Part shown: one piece after another, positions 58,899 to 61,504 of the stretch | How positions within the stretch are numbered: the stretch's first letter is position 1 | Layout of the letters: each line of letters begins with the position of its first letter | Origin: Methanoregula sp. | GTDB lineage: Archaea; Halobacteriota; Methanomicrobia; Methanomicrobiales; Methanospirillaceae | Assembly: GCA_026394605.1 (NCBI GenBank) | Contig: JAPKXY010000020.1 | Span: 1-64,000 of the forward strand | Direction of reading: 5' to 3' | DNA length: 64,000 bases | Position numbers and translations under genes: made by a program | The notes under the pieces: generated by a model | Told to the model about the DNA's origin: nothing | Databases searched by the model: none | Seen by the model: only the letters and a program-made list of their open reading frames with translations

Positions 58899-60023
58899 TC
58901 AGGAGAGGTACTCGAGGACGTTCTGTGGCTCATACCGCAGGCTGATCAGGCGTGTCCTTCCCTTACCCGCGCGGTAGTGCAGGTTTATGAGGCGAAGCGC
59001 ATCGAGCTTTTTTATGACTTCGTAAAACCTTGTATAGCCGATTTTTACCGATTCCGAAATGGTCTTGTATACATCACCTGCGTTCATCTCCTTTTCTTTG
59101 TGGCTCGCTTCGGCAAGGGCTTTTAAGATCTTTTTCTCCTCGTCTTTGAGTGTCTTTACCGTATAGGATAGGTGCAGGTATCTGGAGATATGGTACGCCC
59201 CGCAGATGTCATCCCTCTCAATGGAGCGCCGGGCTGCATGTTCCGCGCTCATCGTTGCCCGTTTGAGCAGGTCAATCCCGACACGCAGGTCCCCGATCTT
59301 CTGGGTCTGGTCGATGACAAGCAAGAGCATCTCTTCGGAGAGGACATTCGGGTACAACCCCTGTATCACACGCACCTGGATAATCTCGCGGATCTCTGCA
59401 GGCTCGTAGGGTGGGAAATAGATCTCGGTAGGCCTGAATACCGAGGTGACGCGGGCGTCCACCGCACGGAAAAGATCGATATCGAGGTCACTGATGATCA
59501 CGATCACGCCGATCCTGACGCCCTCGTACGCTTCGTGGGCGCGCAGCAGCGTATAGAGCACCTTGTTGATCTCGTTCTCATAGAGCAGGTAGTTGGCATC
59601 ATCCAGTGCAACAAGCAGGACAAGTTCCTCTTTTACAAGGATGCGTGCGATCGCATCGAAGAGCTGCTTGAAAGAGGTGCCGGATGCGGGGGGCAGGTGC
59701 CCGGTGAGCCTGCGGTAGATCTGGGAAAATATCGCGAACTTGGTGTTATCGATCTGGCAGTTGATGTACACCGGCACCAGTTTTTTTGTCGTTTCTTCAA
59801 TCTCGGTGAAGAGTTTGCGCACACTGGTCGTCTTTCCGGTGCCGGGAAGTCCCTTGCAGATGCTATTGAGCGGGCGCCCCCCGCGCAATCCCGGGCGGAT
59901 CTGGAACGCAAGTTCGCGCATCTGGTTATCGCGAAACTGGAACTGCTCGGGGACATAGTCAAACTCGAAAACTTCGGGATCACGAAACAGCGTTTCATCC
60001 CACATCAGCAAGTTCTTTTTCAT
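58899..60023 (-). CDS. Orc1/Cdc6 replication initiation protein
   Basis: 374 residues. AAA+ core: Walker A GLPGTGKTTSVRKLF, Walker B VALDDANYLLYENEIN, sensor VIIISDLDID, then a lid and a winged-helix end (VKIGYTRFYEVIKKLDALRL). Family members bind origin boxes and load MCM. It begins near RDNQMRELAFQIRPGLRG, shorter at the front than some. Archaeal origins often lie beside such genes, but no origin box (dyad plus G-string) was seen in the flanking 328 bases. Confidence 0.9.
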   Translation of the reverse strand: MKKNLLMWDETLFRDPEVFEFDYVPEQFQFRDNQMRELAFQIRPGLRGGRPLNSICKGLPGTGKTTSVRKLFTEIEETTKKLVPVYINCQIDNTKFAIFSQIYRRLTGHLPPASGTSFKQLFDAIARILVKEELVLLVALDDANYLLYENEINKVLYTLLRAHEAYEGVRIGVIVIISDLDIDLFRAVDARVTSVFRPTEIYFPPYEPAEIREIIQVRVIQGLYPNVLSEEMLLLVIDQTQKIGDLRVGIDLLKRATMSAEHAARRSIERDDICGAYHISRYLHLSYTVKTLKDEEKKILKALAEASHKEKEMNAGDVYKTISESVKIGYTRFYEVIKKLDALRLINLHYRAGKGRTRLISLRYEPQNVLEYLS

Positions 60024-60222
60024 CTCACTCCATTCCTCAACTGCCCGGATATTAACTGCAGATGAACGGCACCGCTGTATCAGTCTGATGCATGGTGTAC
60101 CCTGTATCCGCAGTACTCGGTTGGTGCCATATCATATCAACGTCACTTATTTGAACCGGTACAATTTTTTTTAGATAAAAGATTTATCCCGCAAGCAACC
60201 ACATACCATTGCCTGCGCCGCC

Positions 60223-60279
60223 GGGCAGATGATGAAAGTTACCCCCACTGAATGGTGATGATGCAGGGGACTGATGCCC
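60223..60279 (+). ncRNA. C/D box sRNA (2'-O-methylation guide), not in any coding frame
   Basis: All four boxes are in order: C ATGATGA (60229-60235), D' CTGA (60248-60251), C' GTGATGA (60255-60261), D CTGA (60271-60274). The outer stem GGGCA (60223-60227)/TGCCC (60275-60279) closes it, giving a k-turn with bulge GAT. The D'-C' gap is 3 bases; the guides are 12 bases (AAGTTACCCCCA) and 9 bases (TGCAGGGGA). Length and layout are those of archaeal C/D sRNAs, which with L7Ae, Nop5 and fibrillarin methylate RNA. The D' guide complements GGGGGTAACT, resembling helix 69 of 23S rRNA (GUAACU conserved). Confidence 0.85.
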
Positions 60280-60352
60280 TTTTAAGGCTGATATAAACGT
60301 GCCTTTTTTTAATCCTGGCGCTCCAGCGGTGCCGCAACGCGGCAAAGCGCAC

Positions 60353-61504
60353 TCAGCTGAAGATGAAAGGCAGGAAATCAACCGCGTTTTTCATGCCGAA
60401 CATCCCGTGTGCCGCCTCGCGTTCCGTGAACCGCCGGGTCGCATCCGTGCCCTTCCCACGGATCACAAACGGCACCGGATCCGCAGTGTGGGTCTTCACT
60501 CTGATAGGAGTCGGGTGATCGGGCAGCACCGCAACTATGCCGTGAAACCCATCCAGAACCGTGCCAACAAGCCCGTCGAACCGCTCGATCGCTTTAACTT
60601 TTTCCTCAATGCTCCCCAGGTGCCCCGCCTCGTCCGGTGCCTCGACATGGAGGTACAGGAAATCGAGGTGCCGGATCGCGTCGAGCGCATACCGTGCTTT
60701 TGCCTGGTAATTGGTATCAAGATAGCCGGTCGCCCCCGGCACTTTTATGATTTTCATACCTGCGCACCGTCCGATGCCATTCAGGAGATCAACGGCAGCG
60801 ATGATCCCCCCGCTCTTATCAAATTTATCTGAGAAGAGGGGGAGGCGCGGTTTCCTGCCGCCGCTCCAGGGCCAGATCTGCGTGGCCGGGGATGTGCCGG
60901 ACGTTTTTCGCGCAGCATTTACGGGATGGTGTGCAAACACCCTGCGGCTTATGTCCATGTACTGCGCGAGGAGCCGGGCATCCCCGCCTACCGGGAGGTA
61001 TCCGGCGATTACCATTCCCACAATATCGTGCGGGGGAGTTGAGGTACAGCCTTTGCCCTGAGGGATGACAAGGAGGTTGCGGTAACTGACGCCGGGTTTT
61101 ATAAGCACGTCCGGTAGTTCCTTTTCAAGGGATGCGAGGAGAGCGGCACCATCTGCGCTGGAGATATGCCCAGCAGAAAAGTCCCGCATCATCCCCCCTT
61201 CGATCGTGACAAGGTTGCAGCGATAGGCGATGTCATCGTCTTTCAAGTCAATGCCCATGCTCATCGCTTCAAGCGGCCCCCTGCCGGTATAGTACGTCCC
61301 GGGGTCGTACCCGAGGATCGACATATTCGCAATATCGCTTCCCGCCTCGAGCCCTTCGGGGATGGTGCGGAGCATCCCGCACGCGCCTGTGCCGGTCATG
61401 CGGTCAAGGTTCGGGGTCCGGGCGTATTCCAGCGGGGTCTTCCCTCCTAGTTCGGGGAGTGGTTCATCCGCCATGCCGTCCCCGAGAATGACGATATACT
61501 TCAT
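60353..61504 (-). CDS. apgM: Cofactor-independent phosphoglycerate mutase (archaeal ApgM)
   Basis: 383 residues from ATG 61504; upstream frame is spurious. Alkaline-phosphatase fold: metal-binding VILGDGMADEPLPELGG, catalytic Ser in DIANMSILGYDPGTYYTGRG, and later HVEAPDEAGHLGS and AHGMFGMKN. Interconverts 3- and 2-phosphoglycerate in central metabolism. The gene begins 16 bases after the end of the epimerase gene, same direction. Confidence 0.92.
   Translation of the reverse strand: MKYIVILGDGMADEPLPELGGKTPLEYARTPNLDRMTGTGACGMLRTIPEGLEAGSDIANMSILGYDPGTYYTGRGPLEAMSMGIDLKDDDIAYRCNLVTIEGGMMRDFSAGHISSADGAALLASLEKELPDVLIKPGVSYRNLLVIPQGKGCTSTPPHDIVGMVIAGYLPVGGDARLLAQYMDISRRVFAHHPVNAARKTSGTSPATQIWPWSGGRKPRLPLFSDKFDKSGGIIAAVDLLNGIGRCAGMKIIKVPGATGYLDTNYQAKARYALDAIRHLDFLYLHVEAPDEAGHLGSIEEKVKAIERFDGLVGTVLDGFHGIVAVLPDHPTPIRVKTHTADPVPFVIRGKGTDATRRFTEREAAHGMFGMKNAVDFLPFIFS

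Follow-up and report, generated by a model that had tools for sequence, protein, structure and literature searches.

A C/D box sRNA gene between orc1/cdc6 and apgM

The window (the whole 64-kb stretch of Methanoregula sp. DNA analyzed here) contains a complete, free-standing archaeal C/D box sRNA gene at positions 60223–60279 of the plus strand, as confirmed by the following evidence. Read directly, the locus has the layout GGGCA G AUGAUGA A AGUUACCCCC A CUGA AUG GUGAUGA UGCAGGGGA CUGA UGCCC, in which the C, D', C', and D boxes (RUGAUGA, CUGA, RUGAUGA, and CUGA) follow one another with archaeal spacings and a terminal stem of 5 bp is available for the C/D k-turn (Table 1). When both strands of the 64 kb were searched, the strict C-D'-C'-D pattern matched once and a looser pattern recovered the same single match, and the strict pattern gave no matches in 100 Markov shuffles of the window. 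The closing stem covaried when homologues were compared (score 0.267 versus 0.090 for shuffled data, reached by 0 of 500 shuffles), with 17 double-change cells observed versus 6.3 in the shuffled data. The minimum free energy fold of the naked sRNA was uninformative (z = −0.45), as expected for an RNA that is shaped by protein. The original prediction that four boxes and a 5-bp stem together make a C/D box sRNA was thus borne out by the direct reading, the uniqueness of the pattern, and its conservation. It is exceedingly improbable that a C/D-like sequence simply arose by chance here, or is a decayed remnant, and that the locus holds no RNA gene, given that the box pattern was absent from the shuffles and that the sequence is conserved across the order, with a covarying stem and boxes that stay fixed while the linkers change.

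Table 1. Features of the sRNA locus and its surroundings, with positions in the window
Feature	Position	Strand	Basis
Cdc6/Orc1 gene (upstream neighbor)	58899–60023	−	Pfam
TATA-like element ATTTATCC	60182–60189	+	Upstream of sRNA; putative promoter role
5' arm of closing stem, GGGCA	60223–60227	+	Direct reading; covariation
C box, AUGAUGA	60229–60235	+	Direct reading; strict box pattern
D' guide, AGUUACCCCC	60237–60246, plus A at 60247	+	Direct reading; invariant in the order
D' box, CUGA	60248–60251	+	Direct reading
C' box, GUGAUGA	60255–60261	+	Direct reading
D guide, UGCAGGGGA, orphan	60262–60270	+	rRNA matches at chance level
D box, CUGA	60271–60274	+	Direct reading
3' arm of closing stem, UGCCC	60275–60279	+	Direct reading; covariation
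T7 run, possible terminator	60304–60310	+	Downstream of sRNA; putative function
apgM-type phosphoglycerate mutase gene (downstream neighbor)	60353–61504	−	Pfam

The predicted location between orc1/cdc6 and apgM held when both neighbors were checked against Pfam; the gap between them is 329 bp, and transcription of the sRNA, if it occurs at all, would head for the 3' end of apgM. One or both of these genes adjoin the sRNA in many of the relatives that carry it. At the position equivalent to that of the TATA-like element, same-genus loci have the A/T-rich boxes ATATATCC and CTATATCC, and DNA homology with two same-genus members begins at 60185. Two same-genus loci (L002 and L006) also have a T run comparable to the one downstream of the sRNA.

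Distribution of the sRNA among relatives

DNA similarity identified the sRNA in 39 of 61 relatives, covering five of the six sampled families of the order. Within the order, the D' guide and the boxes are fixed, while the D'–C' linker, the letters of the stem, and the flanks vary. The box–guide–box string matched named genomes of Methanoregula, Methanoculleus, Methanocorpusculum, Methanocalculus, and others, and further genomes of Methanosarcina, Methanolobus, Haloquadratum, and Methanocaldococcus, the last four of which have the D' guide in the same register. The loci of Methanocaldococcus and Methanothermococcus are full C/D RNAs, indicating that the guide extends outside the phylum of the window's organism. 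In the family with Methanosarcina-type genomes (f8), the register of the homologues is unchanged and 9 of the 10 guide–target pairs are kept, position 2 being variable, and apgM mostly lies on the same side of the sRNA, approximately 700 bp farther off. A search with a sequence model recovered haloarchaeal copies with degenerate boxes, e.g., GAUGACGA AAGUUACCCCCG CUUA. Two Archaeoglobaceae-type loci (L172 and L173), in which the guide is off by one base and the architecture irregular, were excluded from the same-register set, and two loose-pattern matches (L225 and L229) were judged to be due to chance. A Methanoregula-like copy of the sRNA was also present in a bacterial bin, in a record titled Ignavibacteriae bacterium (L358), probably through a binning error.

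The sRNA was not found by similarity and model searches in some of the nearly complete genomes from the order. In one member of the same genus (G002; 99% complete, 4% contamination), the gap between orc1/cdc6 and apgM is 48 bp long (L272, positions 2649–2698) and lacks the sRNA, and the rest of that genome yielded no copy. Two further genomes (G016 and G018) have orc1 and apgM adjacent, with the sRNA absent. The occurrence of several related genomes without the sRNA suggests that the guide is dispensable in some lineages. The model search for missing copies scored part of the first-look candidates, and a diverged copy may lie elsewhere in the apparent-loss genomes. One genome without the helix 69 guide (G030) contains a different C/D sRNA (L266, positions 1503–1559) that scored 45.9 bits against Rfam sR41.

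Candidate pairing partners of the D' and D guides

A search of the window's own draft genome found no rRNA genes, and the 23S sequences of relatives were therefore used as the target. In agreement with the possible helix 69 target of the original prediction, the D' guide finds its complement there, in the 5' strand of helix 69: the target, GGGGGUAACU, was unchanged in all the 23S genes checked except for one divergent copy. GGCGGGGGUAACUAU was present in the 23S rRNA of 19 of the 20 relatives read, the exception being a genome (G012) whose only 23S copy is divergent and reads GGCGGGAGUAACUAU. That copy (L079), the sole 23S match in the draft, has a divergent helix 69 (GGGAGUAACUAUAAC), its contig is possibly a contaminant, and the sRNA guide of the same genome is normal. 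In the phylum-wide search, GGGGGUAAC occurred in every one of the matches listed, so that among these the target is effectively unvarying. One part of the predicted complement did not stand: the 23S rRNA reads CGGGGGUAACU rather than UGGGGGUAACU, leaving guide position 1 unpaired and confining the duplex to positions 2–11, and UCCCCUGCA was not found in the 23S sequence checked. Positions 2–11 form 10 Watson–Crick pairs with helix 69 (−19.8 kcal/mol), a length within the span of about 9–12 nt expected for the guide of an archaeal C/D box sRNA. A Watson–Crick run of 10 in 16S plus 23S rRNA was reached by 5 of 400 shuffled guides, giving a p value of about 0.01 that derives from guide shuffling alone. 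The 10-bp duplex and its register are kept across many lineages.

Under the N+5 rule, the fifth guide base before the D' box pairs with the fourth G of the target. This G, which the original prediction had named as the guided base, corresponds to E. coli position 1909 when counted from Ψ1915 and Ψ1917 of the same loop. Grosjean et al. (2008, PMC2584109), from whom we took the equivalence between the two numberings, list, for Haloarcula marismortui 23S rRNA, a Gm at position 1950 (E. coli 1909). They attribute it to fibrillarin together with an sRNA, describe a candidate C/D guide in Haloferax volcanii, and state that homologues of this candidate occur in 25 archaeal genomes. Helices 68, 69, and 71 are also hotspots among the predicted targets of archaeal guides (Dennis et al., PMC4644070). 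Given the published Gm1909 guide family and the helix 69 hotspot, the window's sRNA most likely belongs to the proposed family. A review (PMC11542601) equates Gm1950 of H. marismortui with Gm2251 of E. coli; PMC2584109 places it at 1909, in helix 69, and the table entry in the review appears to be mistaken.

These observations point, with a probability of about 0.93, to an sRNA gene whose D' guide is predicted to direct 2'-O-methylation at G1909 of 23S helix 69. The sRNA would form an RNP with L7Ae, Nop5, and fibrillarin, the D' guide would pair with the 5' strand of helix 69, and the G opposite the fifth base before the D' box (E. coli 1909, Gm1950 in Haloarcula) would be 2'-O-methylated. We infer that transcription, RNP assembly, and methylation take place in the window's organism.

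The original prediction had left the target of the D guide open, and we likewise found no convincing one: comparison with 23S rRNA, 16S rRNA, and tRNAs from one close relative yielded matches at the chance level only. The best Watson–Crick run in rRNA was 7; of 400 shuffled guides, 154 attained this length. The motif GCA-N-GG is kept in the D guide of nearly every member of the order, and its N is G, C, A, or U and in most members is the fifth base before the D box; the D guide of the Methanosarcina-type homologues is entirely unrelated. A match to the D guide in L073, CCCCUGC, was discarded because the locus is in reverse orientation and the match lies on the wrong strand. The comparison suggests that the D guide is an orphan or a lineage-specific guide, and most likely it directs nothing in the rRNA of the window's lineage. 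Orphan guides are common in archaeal sRNAs (PMC7994747).

Three other roles for the D side were considered. If the sRNA were a dual guide or folding chaperone, with D' on helix 69 and D on 16S rRNA or another RNA, the 16S site would be GUCCCUGC (about E. coli 1379–1386, just before the decoding region). This site scored highest in the 16S rRNA in a column scan, GCA-N-GG is maintained across the order, and archaeal sRNAs linking distant rRNA segments have been described (PMC4644070, PMC7994747); however, another 16S site scores nearly as high, the 7-bp match is at the chance level seen with the shuffled guides, and the 16S site is invariant, yet the N+5 guide base changes by species. Mismatching at the methylation site has been read as indicating that a guide is defective (PMC4644070). 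With the D guide also differing entirely in the Methanosarcina-type homologues, we regard such a dual function as very unlikely. A tRNA or other stable RNA that differs among species is a somewhat better candidate, although still an improbable one: a variable base within a conserved guide could track a variable target, archaeal sRNAs with tRNA targets have been described (PMC7994747), and the tRNA-Ser of a close relative (G004) contains UGCCCUGCAC, which pairs over 7 bp at guide positions 3–9. However, the comparison covered a single relative, matches of 7 bp are expected by chance, and position 2 is mismatched. There is a similarly small chance that the D side is a conserved holding or structural element rather than a methylation guide, which might, for example, pair with pre-rRNA or 16S rRNA and thereby position the helix 69 region.

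Significance and known C/D RNAs

Read as a helix 69 guide, the sRNA connects one particular and deeply conserved gene with a ribose methylation that has been reported at the intersubunit bridge, and does so in a methanogen group for which our literature search found no modification map. Some close relatives carry the gene and others lack it, among the latter one of the same genus with a short orc1–apgM gap at the expected site, and comparing them offers a natural test of the role of the methyl group. What is known of archaeal C/D RNAs is unchanged. The sRNA is a well-preserved member of a guide family that had already been described, and the interest of the locus is modest, lying in the clean lineage-specific losses and the partly conserved orphan D guide.

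When the interval was scored against Rfam, the best matches were C/D box RNAs, but the gathering cut-offs were missed: snoPyro_CD (RF00095) scored 42.1 bits (E = 1e−7), falling just short of its gathering score of 45, and the sRNA was not placed in that family, and sR1 (RF01152) scored 36.6 bits, also under its gathering score. These families share the C/D architecture of the window's sRNA and differ from it in their guides. The H. volcanii candidate (the predicted Gm1934/Gm1950 guide of PMC2584109) has the same target nucleotide, E. coli 1909, as the window's sRNA. The haloarchaeal loci found by the model share the register and the D' guide core GUUACCCCC with the window's sRNA, and their boxes are degenerate. 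The D guide, the box sequences, and the stem vary from lineage to lineage. The Pyrococcus orphan sR41 (RF01126) has been proposed as a modifier of the same G (PMC2584109), but the window's sRNA scored only 18.4 bits against it.
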